Shown: in pieces, positions 28,947-49,200 of the stretch | Layout of the letters: each line of letters begins with the position of its first letter | How positions within the stretch are numbered: the first letter of the stretch is position 1 | NCBI RefSeq assembly: GCF_000429945.1 | Contig: NZ_KE386995.1 | Location: 1,238-65,237 of the forward strand | Source: Desulfogranum japonicum DSM 18378 | Lineage (GTDB): Bacteria; Desulfobacterota; Desulfobulbia; Desulfobulbales; Desulfobulbaceae | Length of the DNA: 64,000 nucleotides | Direction: 5' to 3' | Made by a program: the position numbers and the translations under genes | Notes under the pieces: generated by a model | The model's input: only the letters and a program-made list of their open reading frames with translations | The model's database searches: none | What the model was told of the DNA's origin: nothing

Positions 28947-29921
28947 TCAGTTTTTTTTCTCGCTTTTATAGGTGGTTAGAAGAGATTGTAATTTTGAGGG
29001 AAATGTAAGGCACTCCTTGCCATTGAAGCTTTGCGCAACGACTTCACAAAAACTGAGAAATTCAGCCATGAGTTTGGTCATGATTTTGTCTTTGTGTTGT
29101 ATGATTCGCAGCTGACGTCGCATGTCAATGCCTTCAATGGGCAGTATGTTCAGCCAGCCGTGCTCGATCTCCTTACATACCGTGAGCATTGAGAGGCACG
29201 CGGCTCCGGTTCCCGATTCAACAGCTTTTTTGATGGCTTCGGTATGGCCTGTTTTTGTCATTACTTTCAATAATGATGCGTGCCTGCCAAGTTTTTTGGT
29301 GAAAATCTCAGCTGTTCCGGATCCTTCTTCCCGCATGACCCAACTTGTTTCTTTTAAATCGTCGGGAATTTTAAAAGTTTCCCTGTTTGCAAGTTTATGA
29401 TGAGGGTTAACAATTATCCCCAGTTCATCTTCGAACCAATTGGTGGCCACGAGAGAGTCCACGTTGATTTCACCTTCCACAAATCCCAGATCAGCTTCTC
29501 CTTTGGCAACAAGATGCTCAGCTGCCATGGTATTGACCACCAACATATTTATATGGGCTTCAGGATGAAGACGCATGAATGCACCGATAAGATATGGAAG
29601 CACATAATTTCCAATAGTCGAACTGGCCACTATTTCCAGTACTCCGGCTACAGAGTCACTTTGCTCTGTGAGCATGGATTCCACGTTGGCAACCTGATTA
29701 AGGATATTTTTAGCCAGGGGGAGAAGATACCGTCCCCGGTCATTCAGCAACAGGCTGCGACCATGACGATCAAATAATGGGCCTCCAAGCTGGTTCTCTA
29801 ATTCACCTAATGCCATACTGACAGCTGACTGGGTGAGAAACAGCTTTTTGCTTGCTCTTGTTACCTGCTGCGTTTCGGCGACAGCGATAAAAATTTCTAA
29901 TTGTCTAAAAGTGATCGCCAT
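28947..29921 (-). CDS. LysR-family transcriptional regulator
   Basis: 324 residues from ATG at 29921; the frame continues 33 bases upstream without a better site. The N-terminal winged helix-turn-helix is 'FRQLEIFIAVAETQQVTRAS' to 'LTQSAVSMALGELENQLGGP' (about 4-60). A linker helix and a periplasmic-binding-protein-like effector domain follow ('LEIVASSTIGNYVLPYLIGA' near 92-112). The overall pattern resembles the CysL-type LysR proteins common in sulfate reducers. It is divergent from the nuo operon and could regulate it, but nothing in the sequence proves this. Confidence 0.92.
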   Translation of the reverse strand: MAITFRQLEIFIAVAETQQVTRASKKLFLTQSAVSMALGELENQLGGPLFDRHGRSLLLNDRGRYLLPLAKNILNQVANVESMLTEQSDSVAGVLEIVASSTIGNYVLPYLIGAFMRLHPEAHINMLVVNTMAAEHLVAKGEADLGFVEGEINVDSLVATNWFEDELGIIVNPHHKLANRETFKIPDDLKETSWVMREEGSGTAEIFTKKLGRHASLLKVMTKTGHTEAIKKAVESGTGAACLSMLTVCKEIEHGWLNILPIEGIDMRRQLRIIQHKDKIMTKLMAEFLSFCEVVAQSFNGKECLTFPSKLQSLLTTYKSEKKN

Positions 29922-30083
29922 TGTATAACCCGGTATCAATGCGATTGAACGCAAGTATGATTGTAATTGAACTCAGGTTCTACCCTACCACTTTAATGGA
30001 ATTGGTCAATGATTTTTAGCAGAATGTGGCGATATTTGAGCACCACAAAGGAGTACCAAGTCAATAAGTTACGCGAATTTGAG

Positions 30084-30178: not shown

Positions 30179-30586
30179 ATGGATCAGATTGTACTAACAA
30201 ATATTGTTTATGTAACTATTTTTTTGATAGGAGCGCTTGCCTTCGGCTTTGGGCCAATAATTATTGTAAAGCTGTTGAGCCCGTCTTCCCACACTCGACA
30301 GGTAGCCGGCAAGACCGATCAGTTTATCGAATGCGGTATGGAGCCCATCGGTAGCGCATGGATCAGGTTCGGTATTATTTATTACCTTTATGCTCTTATC
30401 TTTCTCGCCTTTGACGTAGACGTCTTGTTTCTTTTTCCTGTGGCAGCTGTCTATAATAGCCCTGAAGTAGGGTTATGGGGTCTGGGTGAGGTTGTTCTTT
30501 TCGTAGGTATTTTATCACTGGCCGTAGTATATGCTTGGGTCAAGGGGGTATTTAAGTGGAATCGGAAAACGTACCGTCATCAATAG
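30179..30586 (+). CDS. nuoA: NADH-quinone oxidoreductase subunit A
   Basis: 135 residues, three transmembrane helices. Signature '[21 protein letters not shown]' contains the conserved Cys-Gly loop, and '[13 protein letters not shown]' carries the acidic residues of the E-channel. The subunit sits at the junction of membrane and hydrophilic arm beside the quinone site. GGGGAGGGG precedes the ATG. First gene of a continuous plus-strand run of 13 nuo-type genes. It overlaps nuoB by 31 bases. Confidence 0.96.
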
Positions 30587-31044
30587 TTCAATTTGCGCAG
30601 TTGGATAAACTCCTTAGTCTTGGCCGTGCAAATTCTTTATGGCCCATGACATTCGGGCTTGCCTGCTGTGCCATTGAGATGATGTGCACAGGCGGTTCAA
30701 GGTATGATATTTCCCGGTTTGGGGCAGAGGTGTTTCGACCTTCTCCCCGACAGAGCGATGTGATGATCGTCGCGGGTACCATCAATAAGAAGCTTGAGTT
30801 GGCTGTGAAGACTTTATATGATCAGATGCCCGAACCCAAATGGGTAATTGCCATGGGAAACTGCGCCATCTCTGGCGGGCCTTTTAAGGTCAAGGAAAAT
30901 TATAATGTGGTTGAAGGCGCAGATAAGCTTTTTCCCGTGGATGTCTATATACCGGGATGTCCTCCCAGGCCTGAAGCCCTTCTGGAAGGCATAATGACGT
31001 TGGAAGAAAAGATTACCGGGACACGTCGTTGGCCTAGAGTTTAA
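30556..31044 (+). CDS. nuoB: NADH-quinone oxidoreductase subunit B
   Basis: 162 residues from a GTG inside the end of nuoA, with GGGGG eight bases upstream. It binds the terminal iron-sulfur cluster N2 that reduces quinone. Ligands are visible as C37-C38 ('[10 protein letters not shown]'), C103 ('MGNCAISGG') and C135 ('[10 protein letters not shown]'). The length is typical. Peripheral arm, cytoplasmic side. Confidence 0.97.
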
Positions 31045-31065
31045 ACGTCCAATCAGGTGTTTTTC

Positions 31066-31587
31066 ATGAGTGTGATTGAAAGCGTGAAAGCCGCTATCGA
31101 GAAAGTTGTGCCGTTTTCAGAGACGGTAATCCCCGCTGATCCAGCAGGGGAGGGTGAAGAGCAGCAACCTGATCAGGTTGTACACAGCGCTGGCGCGAAG
31201 GAAGTTGATTTCGCTAAGACAGGGTGCAGTCTGGATGTACTTTGTACTGCTGAGCAAATCCTTGATGTTGCCCATGCTCTTGATGGTGAGCAGTTATTTA
31301 TAGAATCCATTGCCGGGGTGGACTGGCCGAAAGAAGATCAGATTGAAGTGGTATACACGTTCAGTCACTTTCAAGATTCTGATGTCAGGGTGATGGTTCG
31401 ACTCCGTGTACCAAGATCCGAACCTAAGGTGCCAACCATATCCAAAGTCTTTTCCGGGGCTGATTGGCACGAACGTGAAACGTATGACTTTTATGGCGTC
31501 GAGTTCACTGATCATCCAAACCTCATTCGTATTCTTCTTCCTGAAGATGCAGATTTTTACCCTCTGCGTAAGGATTATATGCCATGA
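31066..31587 (+). CDS. nuoC: NADH-quinone oxidoreductase subunit C (30 kDa)
   Basis: 173 residues from ATG at 31066, where AGGTG gives good spacing; a GTG nine bases upstream is possible. The N-terminal 45 residues are acidic and not conserved. The 30-kDa domain follows ('SIAGVDWPKEDQIEVVYTF') with the signature 'ERETYDFYGVEFTDHPNL' and 'LRKDY'. It overlaps nuoD by four bases (ATGA), and C and D are not fused here. Confidence 0.95.
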   Translation: MSVIESVKAAIEKVVPFSETVIPADPAGEGEEQQPDQVVHSAGAKEVDFAKTGCSLDVLCTAEQILDVAHALDGEQLFIESIAGVDWPKEDQIEVVYTFSHFQDSDVRVMVRLRVPRSEPKVPTISKVFSGADWHERETYDFYGVEFTDHPNLIRILLPEDADFYPLRKDYMP

Positions 31588-32705
31588 CACTTCCAGTTCA
31601 TTTACGCCACGATGAGACGTTTGTTCTCAATCTTGGCCCTCAGCATCCCGCGACTCATGGTGTGCTTCGAGTTAAATTGACCATGGATGGAGAGTATATA
31701 GTCAAGGCCGAACCTGTACTTGGCTATATACACCGAATGCATGAAAAACTTGCTGAAGCAGGTACCTATCCGCAGTTTATGCCAAACACGGCGCGGATGG
31801 ATTACCTTCATGCGCTGGCCTTCAATCACGGGTATGCTCTTGCAGTTGAGAAAGCTGCAGGTATCGAAGTTCCTGAACGAGCTGAATATATCAGGGTCAT
31901 CACTGTTGAGTTGAATCGTATTGCCAGTCATCTTCTCTGGTGGGCCGCCTTTCTTCTCGATCTCGGCGGTTTTACTCCATTGCTCTACGCCTTTGATGAC
32001 CGCGAACAGATAATAGACCTGCTCGAGCGTGTAACAGGATCAAGGCTTACCTACTGTTACATGCGTTTTGGTGGAGTGTACAATGATATCGATGATGAAT
32101 TTATCACCGGTACCCGTGATTTCATTACACGTCTGCGTAGTCGTATGCCTCGGATGTACCATGACCTTGTAACCCATAATATAATCTTGATCAAAAGAAT
32201 TAAGGATATCGGGTTTATCAGTGAGGAGCAATGTAGACGATACGGCGCTACCGGGCCGGTGGCACGTGGTTCCGGAATTAATTACGACGTGCGTAAGAAT
32301 GAACCGTACTCTGTCTACCAGGAATTTGATTTCGATGTGCCAGTATATTCGGAATGTGATTCCATGGCCAGGTATATGGTACGTATGGATGAAATCGAAC
32401 AGTCTCTTCGTATTATTGAACAGGCTCTCGATAAATTGCCAGATGGCCCTGTAATGGCTAAAAAAGTACCAAAAATACTCAAGCCTGGACTAGGATACCA
32501 CTATTCTGCTGTTGAAACAGCCAGAGGTTCCCTTGGGCACATGCTGGTCTGTAACGGTGATAAAAATCCATATAAACTCAAATTGCGCTCGCCGACATTC
32601 AGTAACCTGAGTTTGTATGGTGAAGTTGCAGAGGGAATGTTACTGGCAGATGCCTTGGCTTTTATGGGTAGTCTGGATCTGGTTATCCCTGAGATTGATC
32701 GATAA
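31584..32705 (+). CDS. nuoD: NADH-quinone oxidoreductase subunit D (49 kDa)
   Basis: 373 residues. The 49-kDa subunit forms the quinone pocket with NuoB. 'LNLGPQHPATHGVLR' carries the conserved His of the quinone site, 'GYIHRMHEKLAE' follows, and the C-terminus 'GSLDLVIPEIDR' is the family ending. NiFe-hydrogenase-type cysteines are absent, which identifies it as complex I rather than a group 4 hydrogenase. Coupled to nuoC by an ATGA overlap. Confidence 0.97.
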   Translation: MTLPVHLRHDETFVLNLGPQHPATHGVLRVKLTMDGEYIVKAEPVLGYIHRMHEKLAEAGTYPQFMPNTARMDYLHALAFNHGYALAVEKAAGIEVPERAEYIRVITVELNRIASHLLWWAAFLLDLGGFTPLLYAFDDREQIIDLLERVTGSRLTYCYMRFGGVYNDIDDEFITGTRDFITRLRSRMPRMYHDLVTHNIILIKRIKDIGFISEEQCRRYGATGPVARGSGINYDVRKNEPYSVYQEFDFDVPVYSECDSMARYMVRMDEIEQSLRIIEQALDKLPDGPVMAKKVPKILKPGLGYHYSAVETARGSLGHMLVCNGDKNPYKLKLRSPTFSNLSLYGEVAEGMLLADALAFMGSLDLVIPEIDR

Positions 32706-32725: not shown

Positions 32726-33718
32726 ATGGACACAAGTATTTGGCGCCCGATTTTATATCTCATCGGCATAATGGTTTTTGCAGGCCTGAACGCAGCCTAT
32801 TTAGGTTGGTGTGAACGTAAAGGAGCCGGCAGAATTCAACGTAGAACAGGCCCCATGGAGGCCGGTTACGAAGGGCTGCTCCAGCCCCTTGCAGACGGTA
32901 TTAAACTGCTCACAAAGCAACTCCTGGTTCCCAGCGGTGCCGATGGAATTCTATTTCGGGTTGCTCCTGTTTTAGCTATGATTCCAGCGATTACCTCACT
33001 GGTTGTTATACCGTTTTCTGAAAATATCCAGGCAAGAGCCATGGAACTCTCGGTTTTGTTGCTCTTTGCCATTGCCTCCATCGCCATGATGGCAGTACTG
33101 CTTGGCGGCTGGGCCTCTGGAAATAAATATTCCGTCATTTCAGCTGCACGTGCGGTGTCACAGAATCTGGCGTATGAAATTCCCATGCTTCTAACTGTGA
33201 TCTGTATCGTCATGATCTCAGGTTCCATGAATCTTCGTGATATAGCCATGGATCAGCAGGGTGGATTTTGGCACTGGAATATATTTCGATTGGACAATTT
33301 CCACTTCCTGTACATGTGGGTAGCGTTCATTATCTTTTTCATATGTTCCATTGCAGAAACCAACCGCGCTCCCTTTGATATGGCTGAAGCTGAGAGTGAA
33401 CTGGTTGCCGGTTTCATGACCGAGTACAGTTCCATGGGTTTTGGCCTGTTCATGATGGGGGAATATCTTAACATTGTAGTTGGGGCTTGCCTTACAACGA
33501 CACTGTTTCTCGGCGGTTGGGACTGTCCGTTTGGTATGTTTCCCGGCGTGTGGTGGTTCATTATTAAAATTTATATCCTGATTTTTACATTTATCTGGAT
33601 ACGCTGGACCTACCCTAGAACGCAGATTTACAAATTGCTGAACCTCTCCTGGAAAATTCTCATCCCCTTTTCACTTGTCAATGTGCTGTTAACAGCCTTC
33701 TTCATCAAGGTATTTTGA
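32726..33718 (+). CDS. nuoH: NADH-quinone oxidoreductase subunit H
   Basis: 330 residues with about eight transmembrane helices. It connects the quinone chamber to the proton-pumping arm. Signatures 'AYLGWCERKGAGRIQRRTGP', 'GWASGNKYSVISAARAVSQ' and 'AETNRAPFDMAEAESELVAG' contain the conserved charged residues of the E-channel. It ends a few bases before nuoI. Confidence 0.97.
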   Translation: MDTSIWRPILYLIGIMVFAGLNAAYLGWCERKGAGRIQRRTGPMEAGYEGLLQPLADGIKLLTKQLLVPSGADGILFRVAPVLAMIPAITSLVVIPFSENIQARAMELSVLLLFAIASIAMMAVLLGGWASGNKYSVISAARAVSQNLAYEIPMLLTVICIVMISGSMNLRDIAMDQQGGFWHWNIFRLDNFHFLYMWVAFIIFFICSIAETNRAPFDMAEAESELVAGFMTEYSSMGFGLFMMGEYLNIVVGACLTTTLFLGGWDCPFGMFPGVWWFIIKIYILIFTFIWIRWTYPRTQIYKLLNLSWKILIPFSLVNVLLTAFFIKVF

Positions 33719-33720
33719 TT

Positions 33721-34161
33721 ATGAGTGGTTACTGGAACGATATCCTGGTTGGCAGTAAAAGTCTGGTGACCGGGCTGATGATCACTGCACGCGAATTTTT
33801 CAAGCCTGTGGTAACGGAGCAATATCCTTATGATGTGCCGGAAATGACCCCGCTCTTCAGAGGACATGTGGAACTCATTGCCAATGAGGAAACAGGCGCT
33901 CCTAACTGTATTGTTTGTATGGCCTGTCAAAGAGCGTGCCCATCGGACTGTATAACTCTTGCTGGTGAGAAAAAGGAGGGTGAAAAGAAAAAATCACTGA
34001 CCCAATACCAGCTTGATTTCACTAAGTGCAGTCTCTGTGGTTCATGTGTGGAAGCATGCAATTTTAATGCTCTGCAGTTTTCTAAAGAGTATAACTTATG
34101 CAGCTTTAACAAAGACGACTTTATTATTGATTTGGTCAAACGTCTGGAGGATCAAAACTGA
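33721..34161 (+). CDS. nuoI: NADH-quinone oxidoreductase subunit I (2 x [4Fe-4S] ferredoxin-like)
   Basis: 146 residues from ATG at 33721; an in-frame TTG six bases upstream is less likely, since AAGG sits 10 bases before the ATG. Cluster motifs are C63xxC66xxC69xxxC73 ('CIVCMACQRACP') and C103xxC106xxC109xxxC113 ('CSLCGSCVEACN'). The second motif ends in Asn instead of the usual Pro. These clusters N6a/N6b pass electrons to NuoB. With no NuoEFG encoded nearby, this subunit is a plausible docking point for ferredoxin or another donor. The stop overlaps the nuoJ start (TGATG). Confidence 0.95.
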   Translation: MSGYWNDILVGSKSLVTGLMITAREFFKPVVTEQYPYDVPEMTPLFRGHVELIANEETGAPNCIVCMACQRACPSDCITLAGEKKEGEKKKSLTQYQLDFTKCSLCGSCVEACNFNALQFSKEYNLCSFNKDDFIIDLVKRLEDQN

Positions 34162-34721
34162 TGCAGCCGCTAGTCTGCCCGTCGGGAACCCTACCATCTC
34201 TGTTTTCTGCGGAGGGATTTGCCGGTATTATTTTCCTGTTGACTGTGTTTCTGGTAATCAGCGGTGCTGTCATTGCTGTAGTCTCCAAAAGGCTTGTTCG
34301 CGCCGTAGCTGGCCTTGCAGTCTGCTTTACCGGCCTTGCCGGGGTATATTATTTTCTGCTCAGCCCTTTTGTGGCCATGATGCAGATGCTCATCTACGTC
34401 GGTGCGGTATCCATTCTCATTGCCTTTGGTATTATGATGGCTACTCCTGAAGATAAGATTACCCCGGACAACAAATATCTCTCTAAACTGATCGGACCGC
34501 TTGCCGGCTCTGTCGGAGCATTATTTTTTGCTGGCTTTTCCTTGCTTGCAGTGAAGACCGACTGGCAGGTGTTTCCGGAACACGCCGCTGCCGACGGGTC
34601 AATCAAGGCCGTCGGCATGACGCTGCTTACCACGCACTCAATGGTATTTGAGCTTATCTCAATCGTGCTTCTGCTCGCCATAATCGGTGCACTTGTTTTG
34701 GCAAGAAGAGGGAGGAATTAA
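34161..34721 (+). CDS. nuoJ: NADH-quinone oxidoreductase subunit J
   Basis: 186 residues, five transmembrane helices. 'MMQMLIYVGAVSILIAFGIMM' is the TM3 pi-bulge motif, and the C-terminus 'SIVLLLAIIGALVLAR' is typical. Part of the central axis between NuoH and the antiporter-like subunits. Starts one base inside the nuoI stop. Confidence 0.95.
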   Translation: MQPLVCPSGTLPSLFSAEGFAGIIFLLTVFLVISGAVIAVVSKRLVRAVAGLAVCFTGLAGVYYFLLSPFVAMMQMLIYVGAVSILIAFGIMMATPEDKITPDNKYLSKLIGPLAGSVGALFFAGFSLLAVKTDWQVFPEHAAADGSIKAVGMTLLTTHSMVFELISIVLLLAIIGALVLARRGRN

Positions 34722-34724
34722 ACC

Positions 34725-35063
34725 ATGCAGATGGTCCTTGAAATATTGAATCTGTATAATTGTATGTCCACCTACCTCATCATTGGAGCCATGCTGTTTG
34801 GGTTCGGGATCTATGGCTTGATGGTACATCGAACAGTGATTGGTATGCTGATTTGTGCAGAGTTTGTCCTTGCTGCCGCTTCGGTAAACTTTATGGCTTT
34901 TAGTCGATTTCTTGCCCCTGAACCTGCAATGGGCCAGATTTTTACATTGTTTATCATGGCCATAGCAGCAGCCGAAGCCGCCATTGCAGTCAGTATTGTG
35001 GTCGCTGTTTATCGAAATTATAAATCCATTGATGTCGAAGATCTCGGCGATCTACACGGTTAA
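34725..35063 (+). CDS. nuoK: NADH-quinone oxidoreductase subunit K
   Basis: 112 residues, three transmembrane helices with conserved glutamates ('GMLICAEFVLAAASVNF' and 'MAIAAAEAAIAVSIVVAVYR'). It links the E-channel to the first antiporter-like subunit. GGGAGG lies before the ATG. Normal length. Confidence 0.96.
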   Translation: MQMVLEILNLYNCMSTYLIIGAMLFGFGIYGLMVHRTVIGMLICAEFVLAAASVNFMAFSRFLAPEPAMGQIFTLFIMAIAAAEAAIAVSIVVAVYRNYKSIDVEDLGDLHG

Positions 35064-35078
35064 TCGGAGATACACACC

Positions 35079-36572
35079 ATGGAAGCCGTTTCCAATCCTA
35101 ACATTGTCGAGAACGTCAACCTGCTGCTGGCTGTGCTTATTCCCCTGTTCGGCAGTCTGGTGGTCATGAACCTGAAGAATAATCCGAATTTACGAGAGTT
35201 TGTCTCTTCATGTTCGTCTATTCTACTTTTTATCATTGTCCTTTCTTTTATTCCCAGTCTCAAAGAAGGCAAAATCCTGCAGTATGAAGTTTTCAGTCTT
35301 CTACCCGGCTTGTCTGTCACCTTGAGGGCAGATGGGTTTTCAATGATTTTTGCCTTGGTTGCGTCATCCCTGTGGACCATAGCCGTATTCTACTCCATGG
35401 GCTACATGCGGGCACATGACGAACCTTGCCAGACCCGCTTCAATGCGTGTTTTGCCCTCGCCATCTTCGGGGCAATTGGTGTCGCTTTATCAGACAATCT
35501 TTTTACCATGTATCTGTTTTATGAGATTGTATCTGTTTGCACATATCCATTGGTGGCACATCATCAGGATGAAGAGTCCTATTCCGGAGCAAGGAAATAT
35601 ATCATTTATCTGACGAGCACCGCCAAATTTTTCCTGCTGCCTGCAATAGTGCTCATCTATGTACTTACAGGGACCCTGGATTTTCCACATAACATTCTTA
35701 CTGGTATAATTCCATCTGATGCCAAGTCTTGGGTCGTGATTTTGCTGTATGTGTTCTGTATTTTCGGTTTTGCTAAAAATGGTGTCATGCCTTTTCACCA
35801 TTGGTTGCCTGGGGCAATGGTCGCGCCAACTCCTGTGTCCGCGTTATTACACGCTGTTGCTGTGGTTAAGGTAGGTGTCTTCTGTACCACAAGAACCATG
35901 CTCTACGTCTTTGGGCTGGACACTATGAATGCTTTAAATCTGGGTATTCCAACGGCGTATTTTGTAGGTTTTACAATCATTGCCGCATCTATTATCGCCT
36001 TATCCAAAGATAATTTGAAGGCGCGGCTTGCCTATTCGACTGTCAGTCAATTGTCCTACATTATCATGGGTGTTGCTCTACTCACTCCGCACGCCATTGA
36101 CGGCGGACTTATTCATATCGTCAATCATGCGTTTTCCAAAATAACGTTGTTCTTCTGTGCAGGCGCTATCTATATCGCAGCACATAAAAAGTATATTTCT
36201 GAAATGAGTGGGCTCGGTCGGACCATGCCATTCACCTTTGGAGCTTTTGCCATTGCTTCTCTTTCTATGATCGGTGCCCCACCCGTGGCAGGATTTGTAA
36301 CAAAATGGAATCTGCTGGTAGGATCAATGGAAGCTCATCAGGTTGGTATCTTGCTTATTCTCATTGCCTCAACGGTGCTGAATGTCGGCTATTTCGCTCC
36401 GGTAACCTATAAGGCCTTTTTTGGTAAACGGCCCGAGGGCGAACCAGAGACTGGAATTAAGGAAGCACCATTGAGTATGCTGATACCAATACTGATTGCA
36501 GTAACCATTTCCGTCATAATAGGTATTTTTCCCGGCTTTATGATGCAATTTGTTCAAATGGTGACAGGATGA
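35079..36572 (+). CDS. NuoL/MrpD-like antiporter subunit, first copy
   Basis: 497 residues, about 14 transmembrane helices. Proton_antipo_M signatures: 'YLFYEIVSVCTYPLVAH' (TM5 Glu), 'FGFAKNGVMPFHHWLPGAM' (TM7 Lys), 'APTPVSALLHAVAVVKVGVF' and 'KARLAYSTVSQLSYI'. It closely resembles MrpD-type cation/proton antiporter subunits and is about 110 residues shorter than a normal NuoL, lacking the C-terminal lateral helix. It occupies the nuoL position. GGAG precedes the ATG. It overlaps the following small gene by four bases. Confidence 0.9.
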   Translation: MEAVSNPNIVENVNLLLAVLIPLFGSLVVMNLKNNPNLREFVSSCSSILLFIIVLSFIPSLKEGKILQYEVFSLLPGLSVTLRADGFSMIFALVASSLWTIAVFYSMGYMRAHDEPCQTRFNACFALAIFGAIGVALSDNLFTMYLFYEIVSVCTYPLVAHHQDEESYSGARKYIIYLTSTAKFFLLPAIVLIYVLTGTLDFPHNILTGIIPSDAKSWVVILLYVFCIFGFAKNGVMPFHHWLPGAMVAPTPVSALLHAVAVVKVGVFCTTRTMLYVFGLDTMNALNLGIPTAYFVGFTIIAASIIALSKDNLKARLAYSTVSQLSYIIMGVALLTPHAIDGGLIHIVNHAFSKITLFFCAGAIYIAAHKKYISEMSGLGRTMPFTFGAFAIASLSMIGAPPVAGFVTKWNLLVGSMEAHQVGILLILIASTVLNVGYFAPVTYKAFFGKRPEGEPETGIKEAPLSMLIPILIAVTISVIIGIFPGFMMQFVQMVTG

Positions 36573-36847
36573 CCAATATAATCGAATTTCTCCAGGCTCA
36601 CCTCAAAGTTGTTATTTGGTGTTGCCTCGGTACGTTACTGGGTATAGCGCTGTTTTCTGTGAGTATTGATACAAGTCATGCCCATTCCTGGGTTGAACAG
36701 CATATTCCGGCATACTGGTCGTTGTTTGGTTTCATTGCTGCAGCGATTATAATTTTTGTCTCTCATTTAGCGGCAAAAGCCGGGCTTCAGGTTTCTGAAG
36801 ATTTTTATGAGCGATCAGTCATAAAAGGCGAAGAGGAAGAGCAATGA
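36569..36847 (+). CDS. small two-helix membrane protein of the complex I operon
   Basis: 92 residues with two predicted transmembrane helices ('VVIWCCLGTLLGIALFSV', 'WSLFGFIAAAIIIFVSHLA') and an acidic C-terminus (KGEEEEQ). The reading frame is locked in by ATGA overlaps at both ends, with the two antiporter-like genes, so it is certainly translated as part of the operon. No family recognised. It may be an accessory subunit that holds the two L-like proteins together. Confidence 0.85.
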   Translation: MTNIIEFLQAHLKVVIWCCLGTLLGIALFSVSIDTSHAHSWVEQHIPAYWSLFGFIAAAIIIFVSHLAAKAGLQVSEDFYERSVIKGEEEEQ

Positions 36848-38634
36848 ATAGTTTTATTCACCCCTCACTGCTCCTGATCATCGGAGCTCTTATTTTACCT
36901 GTTGTCAGGGGCCCGCTAAGAAAGGCATATCTCATTGCCGTTCCCATGCTGGCACTGATAGCTGTAGCCATGAATTGTACACTGGCCGACAATTTTGCCG
37001 TTTTCCAGTTTTTGGATTGGCAGCTTGTCTTTGGTCGGGTAGACAAACTTTCCTCTGTTTTTGCCGTTATTATGGCGGTGATTGCAGTAATAGGAACATT
37101 GTATGGCCTGCATGTGGACAGGGCCGGTGAACATATGGCTGCATGGTTTTATGTTGCCGGTTCCCTTGGAACCATTTACTGCGGTGACTATATCAGCCTC
37201 TTTTTCTTCTGGGAGATGATGGCGTTTGCCTCGGTTTTCCTGATATGGTTTCGGAGAAGAAAGCAGAGTCTCGCCGTCGGATATCGTTACCTCCTTATAC
37301 ATGCCATTGGCGGTATAATTCTTCTTGCTGGAATTATGCTCCGCTATCAGGCGGTGGGGAATATCGATTTTGACCTGATGGATATTGCTCATCCTGAGCC
37401 ATACACTTATCTGATCATGATCGGTTTTGCCTTGAATGCGGCGGTTGTGCCTTTACACTCTTGGCTGCCTGAAGCCTACTCGGAGGCTTCATTCAATGGT
37501 GCTATCTTTCTTTGTGCCTGTACAACCAAAACCGCTGTCTACACTTTAGCAAGGGCCTGCGCTGGCATGGATATACTCATCGTGCTTGGGGTAATTATGG
37601 CGCTTTATGGTGTGATCTATGCCATTTTAGAAAACGACATCAGAAAACTTCTTGCATGGTCCATTGTCTCTCAGGTCGGATACATGGTTGCCGGTGTTGG
37701 TATCGGCAGTGATATGGCCGTGAACGGTGCTGCTGCTCACGCTGTGGCACATATTCTCTATAAGAGTCTGCTGTTCATGGGAACAGGTTCTGTCCTCTAC
37801 ATGACCGGAAAAAGCAAGTTTACCGAACTTGGCGGTTTGTATAAAAAAATGCCTGCCACTTTCATCTTTACAGTGGTTGGTTGTCTGTCGATCAGTGCTG
37901 CTCCATTTTTTGCTGCCTATGCGTCTAAATCCATGATTATTACTGCCGGTTTTGAGGAGCATCTTTACTGGCCGGCGTGGTTATTGATGTTCGGTGCAAC
38001 CGGAACGTTTCTCTATAATGGATTAAAACTTCCGTATTTCCTCTTTTTTGGCAAAAACAACTGTAGTGACGCTACCTGGGAAAAGGCCGGAGATCCGACA
38101 TGGAATATGATGCTTGCCATGATCTTTGGATCCGCGCTCTGTGTAATAGTTGGCTCAGCCCCAGAGTTTTTGTACTCCATGTTGCCATATCCAGTGAAGC
38201 ATTATAGCCCGTTCACAGTGTATCATTTGATGGAAACGCTGCAACTTATGGGGTTTGCCGCACTTGCTTTCTTTTTGTTGAAGCGCTTCATGGAACCGAA
38301 GGATCGGGTTACAGTCGATATAGATTGGTTGTATCGAAATATTGGCGGGATTTTTATGTGGCTGGTTCGATACCCGATTCAGTGGTTCGATACCGTCTGG
38401 GGTGAGGCTTACCGTGTCGTTGGGCTACATTCTCTTATGTCAGCCAGTCGATTCTGGAGTTGGTTTGATTGGAATGTTATTGATCTTATCGTTGATGGTA
38501 TAGCACGTACTGTCCGTGCCATCGGCGGTAAGCTGCGTGTTGTGCAGAGCGGACAGGTTCAATATGTGATGTTTTATGCTTCAAGCCTTGCTGCGATTGT
38601 TTTGATTACTTTGATTGTTTACCATATTTCATAA
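36844..38634 (+). CDS. NuoL/MrpD-like antiporter subunit, second copy, with C-terminal extension
   Basis: 596 residues. The antiporter core has 'LFFFWEMMAFASVFLIWF' (TM5 Glu), 'AAVVPLHSWLPEAYSEAS', 'TTKTAVYTLARA' (TM8 Lys) and 'IRKLLAWSIVSQVGYM'. After about residue 460 there is an extra segment with amphipathic stretches ('DIDWLYRNIGGIFMWLVRYP', 'WSWFDWNVIDLIVDGIA') and a final helix, comparable in position to the lateral helix of canonical NuoL. It therefore probably takes the distal position. Coupled by ATGA to the small gene upstream. Confidence 0.88.
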   Translation: MNSFIHPSLLLIIGALILPVVRGPLRKAYLIAVPMLALIAVAMNCTLADNFAVFQFLDWQLVFGRVDKLSSVFAVIMAVIAVIGTLYGLHVDRAGEHMAAWFYVAGSLGTIYCGDYISLFFFWEMMAFASVFLIWFRRRKQSLAVGYRYLLIHAIGGIILLAGIMLRYQAVGNIDFDLMDIAHPEPYTYLIMIGFALNAAVVPLHSWLPEAYSEASFNGAIFLCACTTKTAVYTLARACAGMDILIVLGVIMALYGVIYAILENDIRKLLAWSIVSQVGYMVAGVGIGSDMAVNGAAAHAVAHILYKSLLFMGTGSVLYMTGKSKFTELGGLYKKMPATFIFTVVGCLSISAAPFFAAYASKSMIITAGFEEHLYWPAWLLMFGATGTFLYNGLKLPYFLFFGKNNCSDATWEKAGDPTWNMMLAMIFGSALCVIVGSAPEFLYSMLPYPVKHYSPFTVYHLMETLQLMGFAALAFFLLKRFMEPKDRVTVDIDWLYRNIGGIFMWLVRYPIQWFDTVWGEAYRVVGLHSLMSASRFWSWFDWNVIDLIVDGIARTVRAIGGKLRVVQSGQVQYVMFYASSLAAIVLITLIVYHIS

Positions 38635-38647
38635 GGGGAAGGAGGAA

Positions 38648-40168
38648 ATGGACGTCTTAGCGAATCTTAATGGGGGATTTCCCCTGCTCAGTTTCCTTAT
38701 ATTTTTCCCACTTGCAGGAAGCCTGGTGCTTTTTGTCTACCCCAAGGAAACATTTGCAAAATATTGGACCCTGGCTGTAACCATTATTACGGCCCTCATG
38801 TCTTTGGGACTTCTGTTTGGTTTTGATCGCACATCAACCAAATATCAGTTTGCAGAGTTGCATACATGGATACCGCAATTCAATATCAACTATGTTGTAG
38901 GTGTTGATGGCATATCCATACTTCTGGTTATTCTAACCACTTTTATCATGCCGTTTTGCGTACTTGCTTCGTGGAAGTATATTTCCAAGAGGGTGACAGC
39001 CTTTATGTTCTGTCTGCTGATTATGGAGACATCCATGGTTGGTGTGTTTGTTGCCCTGGATTTCATCTTGTTTTATGTCCTGTGGGAGTTCATGCTTATC
39101 CCAATGTATTTGCTGATTGCAATTTGGGGTGGCCCGCGCAAGGTGTATGCTTCCATAAAGTTCTTTCTCTACACTTTAGCCGGATCTGTACTGCTGTTAG
39201 TGGCAATTATTGCCCTGTACATGAAAAACGGAAGCTTTTTTATTCCGGACATGATGTGGAATGAGTATTCAATGGTTTTTCAGGTTCTTGTGTTCCTGGC
39301 ATTCTTTCTTGCTTTTGCCATCAAGGTGCCCATGTTTCCTGTCCATACATGGTTACCTGCCGCACATGTTGAAGCACCCACTGCAGGCTCTGTGATTCTG
39401 GCTTCTATTTTGTTAAAAATGGGTACATATGGCATGCTGCGTTTTTGCCTGCCAATCACTCCAGATGCTTCTCTGTTGCTCGCACCATACATTCTCTGGC
39501 TTTCCATTGCCGGTATAATTTATGGTGGTTTTACCGCTCTGGCCCAGCATGATATGAAAAAATTGATAGCATATTCCTCTGTTGGCCATATGGGGTTTGT
39601 GACTTTGGGTATTTTTGTTTTTAATGCTCAGGGTATACAGGGAGCTATCATGCAAATGATCAACCATGGTGTAACCACTGGTGCGCTGTTCCTTTGCGTG
39701 GGCATGATTTATGAGAGAACACATAGCCGTGAATTACGGTTGGCTACAGGTGTGGGAAAATTCATGCCTTGGTATGTAACTTTCCTCGTCTTTTTTTGTC
39801 TGTCCTCGTTCGGTTTCCCGGGAACCAATTCTTTTATCGGTGAATTTTTGGTTCTCGCCGGTACTTTTCGTGAGAATGAAATCCTGGCTTTAGCTGCAAT
39901 TCCAGGCGCCGTATTAGCTGCTGCCTACATGTTGCGTATGCTGCAGAAAATCGTTTGGGGTGGAACCGACAATCCAGATCAAAGTTATCTTACTGATCTG
40001 AATATACGAGAAATAGTTACGCTTGCTCCATTTCTCCTGTTTGTATTTTGGATTGGACTGGGGCCGGAGCCATTCATGAATTTAATGGATGCCTCTGTGC
40101 AGCAACTCGTTGATCAGCTTGGGCAGTGGCAGCAGCATCAGCATGTTGCTACGCTGCTTTTGCCATGA
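38648..40168 (+). CDS. nuoM: NADH-quinone oxidoreductase subunit M
   Basis: 506 residues from ATG at 38648 with GGAAGGAGG directly upstream; the frame begins earlier but without support. 'YVLWEFMLIPMYLLIAIWGG' (TM5 Glu), 'IKVPMFPVHTWLPAAHVEAPT' region (TM7 Lys), 'LLKMGTYGMLRF' (TM8 Lys) and 'LIAYSSVGHMGFV' are the standard NuoM signatures. Proton-pumping membrane subunit of normal length. Confidence 0.97.
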   Translation: MDVLANLNGGFPLLSFLIFFPLAGSLVLFVYPKETFAKYWTLAVTIITALMSLGLLFGFDRTSTKYQFAELHTWIPQFNINYVVGVDGISILLVILTTFIMPFCVLASWKYISKRVTAFMFCLLIMETSMVGVFVALDFILFYVLWEFMLIPMYLLIAIWGGPRKVYASIKFFLYTLAGSVLLLVAIIALYMKNGSFFIPDMMWNEYSMVFQVLVFLAFFLAFAIKVPMFPVHTWLPAAHVEAPTAGSVILASILLKMGTYGMLRFCLPITPDASLLLAPYILWLSIAGIIYGGFTALAQHDMKKLIAYSSVGHMGFVTLGIFVFNAQGIQGAIMQMINHGVTTGALFLCVGMIYERTHSRELRLATGVGKFMPWYVTFLVFFCLSSFGFPGTNSFIGEFLVLAGTFRENEILALAAIPGAVLAAAYMLRMLQKIVWGGTDNPDQSYLTDLNIREIVTLAPFLLFVFWIGLGPEPFMNLMDASVQQLVDQLGQWQQHQHVATLLLP

Positions 40169-40246: not shown

Positions 40247-41668
40247 ATGATGGCTATACTTCCTGAACTGGTGTTGCTGTGTGGAGCAACCTTCTATTTT
40301 ATCGTCAGTCTGCTACCTTCGCCTGGTGTCAGGTTGCTGCGTGGCAGCAGCATTTTCATTGGACTGCTGGTTTTCGCCTCTGCCTGCCTCACATATGGTC
40401 AGGAGAGCACACTTTTTCATAACGCTTACGTTGTTGATAACTACACGCAGATGTTCAAGGTGCTGATAGGTTTTGCCCTGGCTGTGGTTATGATTTTCGG
40501 CGTTGAGCTCAGAGGAATCGAAAACAGCGTGCGTGCTGAGTACAGTATGTTCCTTTATCTAAGCGTGCTCGGCCTCATGATGCTTGTCAGTTCCGTTGAA
40601 CTGATAGCAATTTTTATCAGTCTCGAACTCTCTTCGTTTGCCCTTTATGTTATGGTACCCATGAGAGATGATAGTACCGGGACAAGAACGCAGATGGAGG
40701 CCGGCATCAAGTATGTTCTTTTTGGCGTTATGGCCACCGGATTCATGCTTTTTGGCATGAGTTATCTTTTCGGTTTGACAGGTTCAACCTATTTGCAGGA
40801 CATTATTCCTGCCCTCCAGGGGCTAGGTGGACAGCCTGCTGTCGTTGTTTCGGTTATCATGATCCTTGCTGGCTTCTTTTATAAACTCGCTGTGTTTCCC
40901 ATGCATTTTTGGGTACCTGATGTATATGAAGGAGCAAGTAACGAGACCACAGGCTTTATTGCAACTGTGCCTAAGCTTGGTGCTGTCGCTTTGTTAATTC
41001 GTTTGATGACGCTTCCCAGCGGACAACCTGAATTTTTAGTACAATTTCTTGGTGGAGTCGCTGTGTGTTCCATGTTCTACGGCAACCTTTGCGCTTTGGT
41101 TCAAAAAGACATTAAGCGTATGCTTGGGTATTCAGGTATTTCCCATGCCGGTTTTGTCGTGTTAGGGCTTTTAAGCCTTCGAGCTGAAGGATACGGATTA
41201 GCTATTTATTACATTGCAGGTTATGTGATTATGAATCTTGCCTGCTTCCTGGTTATCAGCGCTTTATCCCAACGAGGTGAAAATCTTCAGATTGATGATT
41301 TTAATGGATTGTATAAAAGGCAGCCGGTACTGGCTTTTATTTTGAGCGTCAGTCTGTTTGCACTTGCAGGCATTCCACCATTTGTAGGTTTTATGGGGAA
41401 ATTTTTCCTGCTTACTTCCACATTGCAACAAGATCACTTGATAATAGTCATTCTAGCCGCCATTAATACCGCGATTGCTATTTATTATTATCTATCAGTG
41501 GTTAAAGCCGCATATACAACTGATTCCAATGACGAACAGCCCGCAATACTGGTACCACCTATGACCCGCATAACCGGTCTTGTTCTGGTTGTTATGATTA
41601 TTTTGATGGGTACATTACCTTCAAAATTCGTCAACTTTGCTGGTTCGTTGGTCCAAAGTATCATGTGA
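40247..41668 (+). CDS. nuoN: NADH-quinone oxidoreductase subunit N
   Basis: 473 residues, about 14 transmembrane helices. 'AIFISLELSSFALYVMVPM' (TM5 Glu), 'KLAVFPMHFWVPDVYEGASN' (TM7 Lys), 'ATVPKLGAVALLIRL' and 'KRMLGYSGISHAGFVVLG' are NuoN signatures. Two adjacent ATG codons; the first is used here. It lies 78 bases after nuoM and is the last gene before a strong terminator. The operon has no nuoE, nuoF or nuoG. Confidence 0.97.
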   Translation: MMAILPELVLLCGATFYFIVSLLPSPGVRLLRGSSIFIGLLVFASACLTYGQESTLFHNAYVVDNYTQMFKVLIGFALAVVMIFGVELRGIENSVRAEYSMFLYLSVLGLMMLVSSVELIAIFISLELSSFALYVMVPMRDDSTGTRTQMEAGIKYVLFGVMATGFMLFGMSYLFGLTGSTYLQDIIPALQGLGGQPAVVVSVIMILAGFFYKLAVFPMHFWVPDVYEGASNETTGFIATVPKLGAVALLIRLMTLPSGQPEFLVQFLGGVAVCSMFYGNLCALVQKDIKRMLGYSGISHAGFVVLGLLSLRAEGYGLAIYYIAGYVIMNLACFLVISALSQRGENLQIDDFNGLYKRQPVLAFILSVSLFALAGIPPFVGFMGKFFLLTSTLQQDHLIIVILAAINTAIAIYYYLSVVKAAYTTDSNDEQPAILVPPMTRITGLVLVVMIILMGTLPSKFVNFAGSLVQSIM

Positions 41669-46254: not shown

Positions 46255-49200
46255 CTATGCAGCGAGCTTGCGTAACTGCTGGTAATCCGTTTTTCCTGTG
46301 CCAAGAAGAGGAATCTGTTCCAGCTGCACCACCCTGCGAATGTTGTGCAGACCCGATAAGCCAGCTTCCCGCAATCTCTTGTTGGCCATTTCCCTTGAAA
46401 GAGGCGTTGTGGTAAACAGAACCAGTTCCGGGCGCCCATCTTCTTCCGCAGTCTCCACAGCCAGGCTGGGGGTGTCTGAACTTCCCCGTTGTACTGCCAG
46501 GAGTGTTTCCTCGATGGCAGGCAGGGAAATCATTTCCCCGCCTATTTTTACGAACCGCTTTTTTCGACCACAGAACCGCAGGTATCCCTGCTCATTTTCC
46601 TGTACATAATCTCCCGTATTGTACCAGTTTTTTCCTGCAAAGTGACAAAAAGGACTCTTTGCTTCGCTGTTGAGATAGCCTGAAAATATGGACGGACCTC
46701 GCACCAGGAGGATGCCTTTACTCTCCTGAGGAACGCAAGCTGTAAGCGCATCGTTTACCAGAACATATTCCACAGAAGGTAATACCTGGCCAATGGTGCC
46801 CCATTGATGAGCAGCCGGAGTGTTAAGGCTTACAAGTGGTGAACATTCTGTAATTCCGTAACCCTCGCAAAGTATGGCATCGGGATTATGCATTCTGAGC
46901 TGTTCAAGTACCTGTTCCGGACATTTTTCTGCTCCTGTAAATATGCGCTGTACAGAATGTAATTGGTTATCTTTGCAAGCGCCTAGAATTCCCTGCAAAA
47001 AGGTTGGGGTTGTGATCAAGGTGGATACGTTGAATTCCTTAATGGTCTGGGACAGCAATGATGGTTCGGTTGGATTTGGAGAATACACTGTCCGCAATCC
47101 CAGGGACAGGGGCATGATAACTGTTCCAGCCAGGCCGAGTGAATGAAAAGGAGGAAGCATGCCCAGCAGGCAGTCCTTGCGTTGAAAACGGATAAGTGCA
47201 GCCATATCCCGCAGGTTACTCAAAAAATTGCCATGGCTTAACGGAACTGCTTTGGGTCGTGATTCAGAACCACTGGTAAAGAGGATTGCTGCTGTTTTGG
47301 CAGGTGTTATTTCTGCAAGTTTTTGAGGAAAGAAACGTGCACTGCAATACGCGCGTATTTTTTCCATTTTGCTGAGTGAGCGTTGAAACTGCTCCATAAA
47401 CAACCATCTAACAGGTAATTTTTCGTAGTCTGTGTTTTGTTGTGAACCTATTTTTTCCAGCATGGGCTTCGCAGAGATCACATGTTGGATGCCCGTTGTT
47501 TTCACAGCATGGGAAACATTGGCATATCCTGTAGTCCAGTTGAGCATAACTGGAGTCTTACCACTGAATACAACCGTGTAATATGCCAGCACACAGGCGA
47601 CAGACGGAGGCAGCATGATACCTACACAATCTCCTTGCATGTGTTGTATACGGGGCAAAAGGGCAAATATCCCAGTAATGAGTTGACGATACGTCAGGGG
47701 GCCGGACATCTGATCTGCCATGATCATGGAGTCTGGTTGCTTTTCAGCCTGATGCAGTAACAGTTTTGTGAGAGTTTCACCGGCAGGAACATGCAGTTCC
47801 CCTTGATCTGTATGTTTCCATTTTGCAGGAGCTGAAACTGCAGGTATGCTGCTTTCAGCCATTGGTATTCCTGCTGCTACCCGTATACAGTCGGTTACTG
47901 TTTCAAGTTGAGCTGGGTCAGGAATGGAAATGGCAAATTCCAGTTCCATCCAGGAGACCAATTCCATAATGGAGAGACTGTCTAAGGCCAGATCCCGGGT
48001 AAGAGACTGATGCCTGGTTACCATTGTACCTGTTACCTGCTGGATCTTTTCTATCACCAAAGTGGTGACGGAGTCATTTATATGCGTTTCCATCGTATGC
48101 TTTTCAGCCAATTCAGGTTCCGGGAGATTCTGCGGCAGTCTCCCTTGCCACCAATAATAGGGAACAAAGGTATTTGATTGGGGGGTGGCATTATAAAAGG
48201 CTTCGAGATATCTGTTGATTTCCTGACGACCATGCAATTTTGTAACCTCGAGATCTGCATAGCATTCAATGGTGACAGCCCTGCGAGGCATAAAGAATAG
48301 ACCGCTGCTCAAAAGACTTTTTAGATACATTCCTATATGTTTTTCCGGTTCGGGAGCGACGCCAGATGCCCGACTGAAACTGCTTCCCCATAAGCCACTG
48401 GTTCTGAGTAGAACCACTTGCGTTTCAGGTACTTGCTTAAGGATGTACTCCACAGCAGAATTACCTCCCAGAGATTCCTGCGAACTGCGCATAAGTTTTC
48501 CGCCGGGATAGAGAAGAATGTTTCCACCTTTTTTCATCGTATCAACAACTTCCTGCAGAGTTGCATGCACGTGGTTCATATCAGCCTGGCCACCGTAGCC
48601 TGGCCTGCGGAGAGCAATAGTGTTCAGCATGTGAGCAATGTGTCTGATAATTGGCCTTTCAACCTGTTCTGCTGCGGCCAGCGGACTTGGGCGGAACCTT
48701 CTGTAAAGAGTAGTAAGAACGATTACCGGATCAATCAGGGCAGGGTGGTTTGGAAGAAAAAGCACAGGCTTCCTGTTGTCTACCTTGAGTTCCTCCAATC
48801 CCTTGACAGTTATGCTGTATCTTGTTTTCAGTATGAGTCTGAGTAGAAATAGTATCAAAGAGGTAATCATTTTTTTTACTCCAGGTATGCATAGAAACAG
48901 TATCGCACTACAGCCATTCAATATTGCCAGCAACAGCATGGTTGTGCTGGGAGTAAATTGTTGCTGTAACATATTAAACAGGAGACCGGACAGGAGAATA
49001 GCCACAAAAGAGCAAAAACTCGCGGTAGCTAATGTTCGTCCTTTTTCTTCTCTGGGGGGACGAATCTGCAAAAAACTCGTGACAGGTATGAGAAACAATC
49101 CTCCGGCGATCCCAGAAAGAAGCAGGGAAGCTGCCATTGTATACCACTGCATGGGGGCTTGTGCAAATTTGGTGAGAGTAGCAGCGTAAAGGCCGGCACC

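Follow-up and report, generated by a model that had tools for sequence, protein, structure and literature searches.

A complex I gene cluster of Desulfogranum japonicum in which L1-S-L2 replace NuoL and the second antiporter-like subunit is probably not a normal fourth pump

How pumping is divided among the antiporter-like subunits of complex I is an open question, and a gene cluster of Desulfogranum japonicum DSM 18378, a sulfate-reducer-type bacterium, raises it in a direct form: with four antiporter-like subunits encoded, does the complex pump one more ion? The window, by which we mean the whole stretch of DNA analysed, comprises 64,000 nt of assembly GCF_000429945.1 (NZ_KE386995.1 positions 1,238 to 65,237, forward strand), and positions are given within it. 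We favour, with a probability of roughly 55%, the reading that the product is a complex I, without NuoEFG in the cluster, in which an antiporter-like protein (L1), a small membrane protein (S) and a second antiporter-like protein (L2) replace NuoL, L1 being the working core and L2 a distal subunit that is not a normal pump, so that the stoichiometry would be about ordinary.

The cluster was contiguous and read A-B-C-D-H-I-J-K-L1-S-L2-M-N, with all genes on the plus strand. The first part comprised nuoA (30179..30586; PF00507), nuoB (30556..31044; PF01058), nuoC (31057..31587; PF00329), nuoD (31584..32705; NCBIfam NuoD models), nuoH (32726..33718; NCBIfam NuoH, 322.3 bits), nuoI (33715..34161, listed with a TTG start; Fer4 matches and 98.5 bits to TIGR01971, below its cut-off of 113.05), nuoJ (34161..34721; PF00499) and nuoK (34725..35063; PF00420 and NCBIfam NuoK models). 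After L1 (35079..36572), S (36569..36847) and L2 (36844..38634) came nuoM (38648..40168; TIGR01972, 615.8 bits) and nuoN (40247..41668; TIGR01770, 364.1 bits). The ORF list placed the nuoM start at a TTG at 38615, which is probably too early, as AGGAGG and then the likely ATG start at 38648 lie downstream. No nuoE, nuoF or nuoG was found among the scanned proteins of the cluster and its flanks (Pfam, NCBIfam), and of the five PF01512 (NuoF) matches in the same genome none lay on the window's contig.

No nuoL was found between nuoK and nuoM, all of the cluster's antiporter-like proteins falling below the NuoL cut-off (NCBIfam NDH_I_L, 407.5 bits; L1 215.7 and L2 154.7 bits), and this bears out an earlier sequence-only reading that nuoL is replaced by two antiporter-like genes and a small membrane gene. 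The coordinates and lengths that it gave for L1 (497 residues), the two-helix protein S (92) and L2 (596) were exact on re-reading, and the ATGA overlaps that it described were present at both junctions, L1 stop/S start and S stop/L2 start. Its description of the two larger proteins as MrpD-like agrees with the NCBIfam models whose cut-offs they exceeded (L1, PRK08375.1-1, 814.4 versus 663 bits; L2, PRK12668.1, 694.9 versus 564 bits), both of which are named antiporter subunit D; this is a database label, however, and L1 shares the TM8 His of NuoL/MrpA.

Of 80 related loci, 71 had the L1-S-L2 order, with K-L1-S-L2-M-N complete in 63 and A to N complete in 50, and because the order recurs in this way the arrangement is not due to chance. 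Culturable relatives such as Desulfogranum mediterraneum and Desulfobulbus elongatus carry the cluster as well. The remaining nine loci had L2-M-N (two of them with S as well) and no upstream L1 match. Both L1 and S were located in 74 loci, and in 68 of these they overlapped by exactly 4 bases. The S protein itself had no Pfam or NCBIfam match at E 0.001, and its structure model had a mean pLDDT of 75.6 and a pTM of 0.44. A tblastn search of S against plasmids returned one weak match (E 0.8), so relatives of S were located by position and then by profile. The profile, built from 28 S proteins, matched 41/42 S ORFs in complex I contexts and 18/18 in Mrp contexts, with controls at no more than 8.0 bits; locus L129, where an L1 fragment had been taken as the ORF, was omitted, and L169, where no S was found, was scored as a miss. 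As the complex I ORFs partly share genomes with the profile, the Mrp-context ORFs are the real test. S is a conserved partner of L1 and L2, which it may join to one another.

Two antiporter-like genes where one is expected could also mean that L1 and L2 are alternatives, occupying the NuoL site one at a time in two forms of the complex. We regard this as very unlikely indeed: L1 has no lateral helix, as the sequence-only reading had also noted, the gene overlaps suggest equal production, and in each of two different host complexes L1 and L2 co-occur, separated by a conserved S.

The second of these hosts is the Mrp antiporter. In many Desulfobacterota, Mrp clusters end in L1-S-L2 of the same L1 and L2 families, with S kept in nearly all of the L1/L2 pairs read; unlike the window, these clusters have mrp genes ahead of the triad and an L2 tail that is not NuoL-like. 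Together with the NCBI names for L1 and L2, this is the ground for supposing that L1-S-L2 form or join a separate cation/proton antiporter and merely share the complex I operon. That reading is very unlikely. A Pfam scan of 20 proteins from 23251 to 46172, a region whose smaller ORFs were only partly scanned, found no MrpB, C, E, F or G genes, and the cluster has no other NuoL. Elsewhere in the genome, antiporter-like genes occurred only within a canonical nuo cluster and as two genes grouping with HyfB and HyfF. As the sequence-only reading had proposed, the antiporter-like subunits encoded in the cluster number four (L1, L2, M and N).

The C-terminus of L2 also speaks against a separate antiporter, a possibility that the sequence-only reading had itself named as one that would undo its proposal. 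A profile of the NuoL tail scored 23.4-74.9 bits in 44/44 L2 proteins from complex I contexts (the window's included) and at most 3.4 bits in 19/19 from Mrp contexts (one of them unscored); two L1/L2 pairs whose context could not be assigned (L148_14550 and L187_7849) were left out of the context counts. On a tree of the L2 core the context switched between complex I and Mrp five times, and tail type agreed with context in 4/4 independent pairs, although with so few switches the sign test gave p 0.125. The L2 C-terminus follows the host complex despite these switches. The C-terminal extension of L2 was earlier proposed to supply the lateral helix that L1 lacks; this part of the proposal holds, but the extension is not of unrelated sequence, being a recognisable NuoL-type lateral-helix/TM16 tail.

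The ORF, NCBIfam match, model and structural alignment of L2 point to a TM15, a lateral helix (residues 493-573, 38320..38562, a region of low model confidence) and a TM16. The spacing from D-x-x-Y to Q-x-G was 46-48 in 18 of 21 measurable NuoL proteins (of 25), and 71-72 in L2, a value shown by 69 of the 71 proteins measurable among 76 and, in another set, by 28 of the 30 measurable among 41. The offset of the D-x-x-Y motif between E. coli NuoL and L2 was 48, which matches the offset seen structurally with five E. coli chains at residues 512-514 of the model; with other E. coli NuoL chains the structural alignment ended further out, at offsets of 43-48, and a plain alignment put the motif elsewhere. 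The model was weak here, with block pLDDT values of 43-66 from residue 491 onward. If the motifs are equivalent, the lateral helix of L2 would be about 25 residues longer than that of NuoL, a gain that fits the expectation for four antiporter-like subunits in line, and to this extent the helix spacing is consistent with the earlier count of four. The hydropathy distance from TM15 to TM16 was dropped as a measure of helix length, being noisy and loop-dependent (L2, 106-119 in 62/117, with most others at least 145 and apparently mis-parsed; NuoL, 97-111 in 20/25); it was only slightly greater in L2, since in NuoL the helix follows a longer loop. L2 C-termini from Mrp contexts were not shorter, though Mrp has one antiporter-like subunit fewer, so a simple ruler fails in that setting. 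In the complex I setting L2 would lie at the tip of the arm as the fourth antiporter-like subunit, and its TM15, a lateral helix longer by about one subunit and TM16 would strap the row L2-L1-M-N.

L1 carries the NuoL-type residue set E149, K233, H258, K264 and K409, invariant in 71/71 L1 proteins of related loci (the window's included). In 59 L1 proteins of a phylum set (again with the window's) the sole change was one K264 to Thr. Of 60 regions chosen by hand for that set from matches above the L2 cut-off, 59 were used, the other being an uninformative stretch of 10 bases; weaker L2 proteins are therefore absent from it. By the TM5 Glu, TM7 Lys, TM8 His/Lys and TM12 Lys of a pumping antiporter-like subunit, that single TM8 Lys to Thr apart, L1 qualifies and, with every checked proton-path residue retained, would do the work of the NuoL core.

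L2 differs at one site. In antiporter-like subunits the TM5 Glu forms a pair with the TM7 Lys, a position that corresponds to K229 of E. coli NuoL. There L2 has Asn198 (codon 37435..37437), which the sequence-only reading overlooked. This position was Asn in 76/77 L2 proteins and Ser in one, Asn in 44/44 complex I and 19/19 Mrp L2 proteins and Asn in the 30/30 top phylum loci, these sets overlapping. When 33 antiporter-like proteins were compared at this site, the five L2 had Asn and the other 28 Lys, and the lysine was retained in L1 (71/71 and 59/59), M (66/66), N (75/75) and canonical NuoL (25/25). L2 keeps its TM5 Glu (Glu124), TM8 Lys (K229) and TM12 Lys (K362), each invariant in 63/63, and so has the TM8 Lys with TM12 Lys/Glu feature of a pumping subunit and lacks the TM5 Glu/TM7 Lys pair. 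Since the Asn replaces a lysine that L1, M and N keep, L2 is a doubtful fourth pump, and as the Asn is fixed where the partner of the TM5 Glu should be, L2 is probably not a normal one. Because L2 lacks this lysine, the complex would most likely pump about the same number of protons as an ordinary complex I. The earlier suggestion that the added subunit might alter ion stoichiometry is, as it was put, unsupported.

The three invariant residues argue against a dead subunit, and they also favour the reading in which L2 is a true fourth pump, with Asn198 and hydration standing in for the lysine and one more ion moved per cycle. In the same direction, 5 to 6 ions have been proposed for the rhizobial and Manganitrophaceae complexes (PMC9040806), and one model runs the proton paths around the TM8 and TM12 lysines, leaving the TM7 Lys itself off the path (PMC7419157). 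We nevertheless consider a true fourth pump unlikely, as the same source calls the TM7 Lys essential and absolutely conserved (PMC7419157), and purified Nqo13 K232Q, a variant that removes the charge of the TM5-TM7 ion-pair lysine, was incapable of NADH:UQ oxidoreduction (PMC9802314). In addition, L2 has the fixed Asn whether its setting is complex I or Mrp, suggesting that the loss of charge was itself selected. Stoichiometry was reported unchanged in every catalytically competent variant of the Nqo13 study, so it need not reveal that a residue has been lost (PMC9802314). The absence of one charge of the Lys/Glu pair, and the sharing of the triad with Mrp antiporter clusters, could alternatively indicate that Glu124 and Asn198 form a sodium site and that the added length serves to bind or conduct Na+, making the arm partly Na+-coupled; the data here do not separate Na+ from H+, and we consider this the least likely of the readings weighed.

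In trees from quick searches with SH-aLRT support only, L1 and L2 formed two separate clades, each at 100; the L1 clade also contained one Mrp protein of Rhizobium rosettiformans. The deep position of L1 was not settled by the trees. L1 and L2 as recent tandem duplicates of each other or of NuoL were considered and set aside given the two clades, but AU tests rejected none of four groupings (L1 with NuoL/MrpA/HyfD, p 0.465; L1 with MrpD, 0.089; L1 with L2, 0.185; L2 with NuoL/MrpA/HyfD, 0.35). The L1 and L2 of one cluster sometimes had different histories.

Two MrpD-like proteins in place of NuoL are known from the green complex I of rhizobia (PMC9040806, PMC7415380, PMC4967309) and the arrangement was previously published for rhizobia and Manganitrophaceae (PMC9040806). 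On three Sinorhizobium/Ensifer plasmids we found homologous L1, S and L2 in the order J-K-L1-S-L2-M-N (51-52% identity to the window's L1, 45-46% to its L2). Those clusters differ from the window's in having nuoE and nuoF, with nuoG in two of the three stretches, and in placing A to F after N, where the window is collinear from A to N; the NuoG of green complex I has an extra FeS cluster (PMC4967309). The next two comparisons are by published description. Complex_I_3 of 'Ca. Manganitrophaceae' likewise has two MrpD-like subunits, akin to the rhizobial ones, but differs in having a second NuoM, which makes five antiporter-like subunits, and a helix insertion of 26 aa relative to the rhizobial form; its authors link the added lateral-helix stretch to the added subunit (PMC9040806). 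The 2M complex I (Chadwick et al. 2018) also has a fourth antiporter-like subunit and a lateral-helix insertion of similar size, with a second NuoM as the extra subunit and NuoL kept (PMC9040806, PMC7784846); the window instead has one NuoM, L1-S-L2 for NuoL and a fourth subunit minus its TM7 Lys. The gain of about 26 residues in 2M may be set beside the spacings of 71-72 and 46-48, which come with low model confidence and a TM15-TM16 distance that differs little. In the parts of the literature available to us we found no description of the L2 Asn, the S protein or the L1-S-L2 arrangement in Desulfobacterota, and neither structural nor biochemical work on an L1-S-L2 complex; there was no solved complex of this type among the 50 VIA-align matches listed, which carries no evidential weight. 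The triad at the end of Mrp clusters, the host-matched L2 tail, the longer motif spacing in the helix and the L2 TM7 Asn are new here.

These data may describe a pump that looks longer without clearly pumping more: a fourth copy minus one key lysine, maintained in many lineages and two different machines. We tentatively suggest, at slightly under even odds, that L1-S-L2 is an exchangeable distal module of complex I and Mrp antiporters, its parts also exchanged singly, in which the input coupling pair of L2 is permanently neutralised and the lateral helix refitted to each host. If so, complex I would exist in a form whose number of pumped ions does not follow its number of antiporter-like subunits, and where the literature counts a 'fourth' or 'fifth' pumping subunit in green complex I and its hybrids, the count would be one too high. 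The stoichiometry of such a complex bears on whether every antiporter-like subunit translocates one ion, or ions leave by a single exit while the other subunits relay charge. It also bears on the energy accounting of sulfate reducers and of rhizobial nodules, for which the extra subunit has been taken to mean an extra pumped ion.

On contig C21 the genome also encodes a canonical complex I, which has homologs of L, M and N. Its single NuoL, with a 640-residue open frame, exceeds the cut-off of NDH_I_L, and a NuoF-like gene lies about 5 kb upstream. Outside bacteria, a haloarchaeal plasmid Mrp cluster ends in L1-L2 of the same families, with Asn at the L2 TM7 site, and is unlike the window in having no S gene. 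Its L1 is 582 aa long, and a fusion of S to L1 was considered there and rejected, as the S profile gave no significant match and the additional residues form a charged, His-rich insert.

The complex I cluster of the window read nuoA-B-C-D-H-I-J-K, L1, S, L2, nuoM, nuoN, where L1 (497 residues, 35079-36572, forward strand) and L2 (596 residues, 36844-38634, forward strand) are antiporter-like subunits and S (92 residues, 36569-36847, forward strand) is a two-helix membrane protein; no nuoE, nuoF or nuoG was found in this cluster. The coordinates given to these three genes in the sequence-only reading were confirmed on the sequence, as were the overlaps it had described, with both the L1/S and S/L2 junctions reading ATGA. 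The order L1-S-L2 was found in 71 of 80 related loci, extending to K-L1-S-L2-M-N in 63 and complete from A to N in 50, and the other nine had L2-M-N (two also with S) with no L1 match upstream. Elsewhere in the same genome (5.8 Mb, 124 contigs), contig C21 carried a second cluster with canonical NuoL, M and N, with a NuoF-like gene approximately 5 kb upstream, and contig C58 a gene pair grouping with HyfB and HyfF.

In outline this arrangement is already known, having been published for other bacteria. PMC9040806 reports two MrpD-like subunits instead of NuoL in green complex I, in certain rhizobia, and a related Complex_I_3 in Manganitrophaceae; the rhizobial complex is reported to be upregulated in symbiosis (PMC7415380). 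Exactly this J-K-L1-S-L2-M-N order recurred in Sinorhizobium meliloti, S. medicae and Ensifer adhaerens, on plasmids whose proteins were 51-52% (L1) and 45-46% (L2) identical to those of the window, and whose 84-residue S counterpart, annotated as hypothetical only, aligned along S to its C-terminal REDYYD. Unlike the window, these plasmid clusters contained nuoE and nuoF (two of the three also showed nuoG), and their gene order also differed, so the window cluster is a sister variant of the rhizobial clusters and no copy. Within the phylum, a complete complex I with fused BCD occurs in four classes (PMC12361115), and the available part of that account of the phylum's complex I contains no L1-S-L2 arrangement.

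L2 scored above the NCBI cut-off in 173 of 395 Desulfobacterota genomes, and the 59 regions surveyed around such matches yielded 61 L1/L2 pairs, of which complex I clusters accounted for 41 and Mrp antiporter clusters for 18, the remaining 2 having no assigned context. The usual order of the Mrp clusters, with variations, was mrpE-F-G-(mbhD/mbhE or DUF4040)-B-C-D-L1-S-L2. Six genomes read (G008, G195, G240, G325, G343 and G385) had both forms, and in G385 (region L147, 1-19001) an Mrp cluster ending L1-L2 directly adjoined, on the same strand, a complex I cluster that had an L1-S-L2 set of its own; on a haloarchaeal plasmid, L1 and L2 came after Mrp genes, with no S in the cluster. A profile built from 28 S proteins (match at E <0.001 for 10,000 sequences) matched 41 of 42 S reading frames from complex I clusters, 18 of 18 from Mrp clusters (at least 35.1 bits) and both without assigned context (at least 32.9 bits), with controls (1240 shuffled sequences, 130 NuoK/NuoA) reaching 8.0 bits at most. 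From these cluster orders and the S matches in both contexts, the triad therefore occupies the place of NuoL or of the N-terminal half of MrpA. One rearranged cluster (L171, genome G197) had L1-S-L2 after nuoM and nuoN rather than before, and in two complex I-type clusters from small genomes (L160 and L181, approximately 1.8 Mb) hydrogenase-like matches (hyfG, hyfA) were interspersed with the nuo genes.

Against a profile built from the last 66 residues of canonical NuoL, its tail, L2 scored 23.4 to 74.9 bits in 44 of 44 complex I clusters (41 from the phylum, the window and two rhizobial) and 3.4 bits or less in 19 of 19 from Mrp clusters (18 from the phylum and one haloarchaeal; one without a score). 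In a tree of the L2 core (first 455 residues only), context changed five times, at least four changes being forced by well-supported branches, and the tail switched together with the host in four of four independent pairs, few events (sign test, p 0.125) which suggest that the lateral-helix tail follows the host complex. The L2 cores of L160 and L181 lay within an Mrp group, yet came from complex I clusters and had NuoL-type tails with a spacing (residues from the D-x-x-Y motif to Q-x-G before TM16) of 72, and those of L140, L144, L156 and L159 lay within the window's complex I group, yet came from Mrp clusters and were without the tail.

L1 and L2 formed separate, well-supported clades in a joint tree (rooted by midpoint, with long branches present), with complex I and Mrp members mixed in each. 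The deepest L1 members and the first L2 branch sat in Mrp clusters, which, with this intermixing, suggests that these genes moved into complex I from Mrp and passed between the two more than once. For L140 and L156, L1 grouped with Mrp L1 proteins and L2 with the window, and for L160, L1 grouped with those of complex I and L2 with Mrp; parts of the triad therefore seem to have been exchanged separately at times.

The lateral helix of L2 looks longer than that of NuoL by approximately 25 residues. Among canonical NuoL proteins the spacing could be measured in 21 of 25, and 18 of these had 46-48 residues. In L2 it was 71-72 residues, both in a set of 76 (69 of the 71 that could be measured) and in a set of 41 (28 of the 30 that could be measured). 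A plain alignment put the motif at another place than this count does. At a helix rise of 1.5 Å per residue the extra length is 37.5 Å, roughly what one antiporter-like subunit measures across. Helix insertions of 26 residues, a similar length, are discussed in PMC9040806. The AlphaFold2 model of L2 (mean pLDDT 82; block means only 43-66 from residue 491 onward) had NuoL chain 8e9g_L as its top VIA-align match (Z 44.6, rmsd 6.2, 534 aligned), tied with rows within 1 of it, MrpD chain 7qru_D among them. Five E. coli NuoL chains aligned to model residues 512-514 against chain residues 560-562, an offset of 48 also given by the D-W-L-Y motif (E. coli NuoL Tyr545, L2 Tyr497); in other E. coli NuoL chains the alignment ended further out, with offsets of 43-48. 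The hydropathy-based TM15-TM16 distance, for which the parse failed for many L2, differed little between L2 and NuoL because the NuoL loop before the helix is longer, and L2 tails from Mrp clusters were no shorter, despite one subunit fewer.

Where E. coli NuoL has K229 (the TM7 Lys), L2 has Asn198, found in 76 of 77 L2 proteins (Ser in one) and in 30 of 30 of a further, overlapping set; by context, again in overlapping sets, it was present in 44 of 44 from complex I and 19 of 19 from Mrp clusters. The TM7 Lys was kept in M (66/66), N (75/75) and canonical NuoL (25/25), and among 33 antiporter-like proteins Asn occurred in 5, every one an L2, and Lys in 28. L1 kept Glu149, Lys233, His258 and Lys409 without exception in both sets (71/71 and 59/59), and a single L1 departed from Lys264. 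An Mrp cluster on a Peptoclostridium plasmid (L096, 7314-12253) had an L1-like protein and then a different third antiporter-like protein, which keeps the TM7 Lys, groups elsewhere and was ruled out as an L2. The TM12 residue was swapped in a few related loci (NuoM Glu to Lys, 2/66; NuoN Lys to Glu, 6/75), and misassigned reading frames may explain some of these swaps.

PMC7419157 describes the TM7 Lys as essential and conserved without exception, and locates it at the coupling points between subunits, together with the TM5 Glu and the TM12 Lys of the neighbouring subunit; according to PMC9802314, catalysis was blocked in Nqo13 when the Lys of the ion pair lost its charge (K232Q), stoichiometry was unchanged in every competent variant, and the role of the helix in that complex was purely structural. 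Provided that the PMC7419157 coupling scheme holds, an L1/L2 contact would be without the usual charge switch, so that L2 would not receive the drive of a fourth pump. All 63 L2 proteins compared retain the TM5 Glu, TM8 Lys and TM12 Lys. That L2 is a true fourth pump we consider rather unlikely. We give a probability of roughly 55% to this reading as a whole, in which NuoL's work most likely falls to L1, L2, placed beyond L1, supplies the strap, and S joins the two; we infer how the subunits are ordered along the arm, what S does and the stoichiometry. In the literature covered, partly available and with the two founding papers outside its scope, we found no description of the Asn fixed in L2, the conservation of S, the presence of the triad in Mrp clusters as well, the host-matched tail or the spread in Desulfobacterota.

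The window cluster was flanked, on the opposite strand, by a LysR gene upstream and a serine hydroxymethyltransferase gene downstream. The LysR-type regulator (28947-29954, reverse strand) is divergent from nuoA and adjoins it, and the same neighbours recurred in 36 of the 80 related loci, only 57 of which extend to nuoA; it may therefore control the complex. Upstream of it, a 592-residue protein (25091-26869, forward strand) with several cytochrome c7/c3 Pfam matches is likely a multihaem cytochrome. The window also encoded a 1288-residue fusion (46255-50121, reverse strand) of MFS transporter, acyltransferase, PP-binding and AMP-binding domains, which we take to be of the type known from lysophospholipid uptake and re-acylation.
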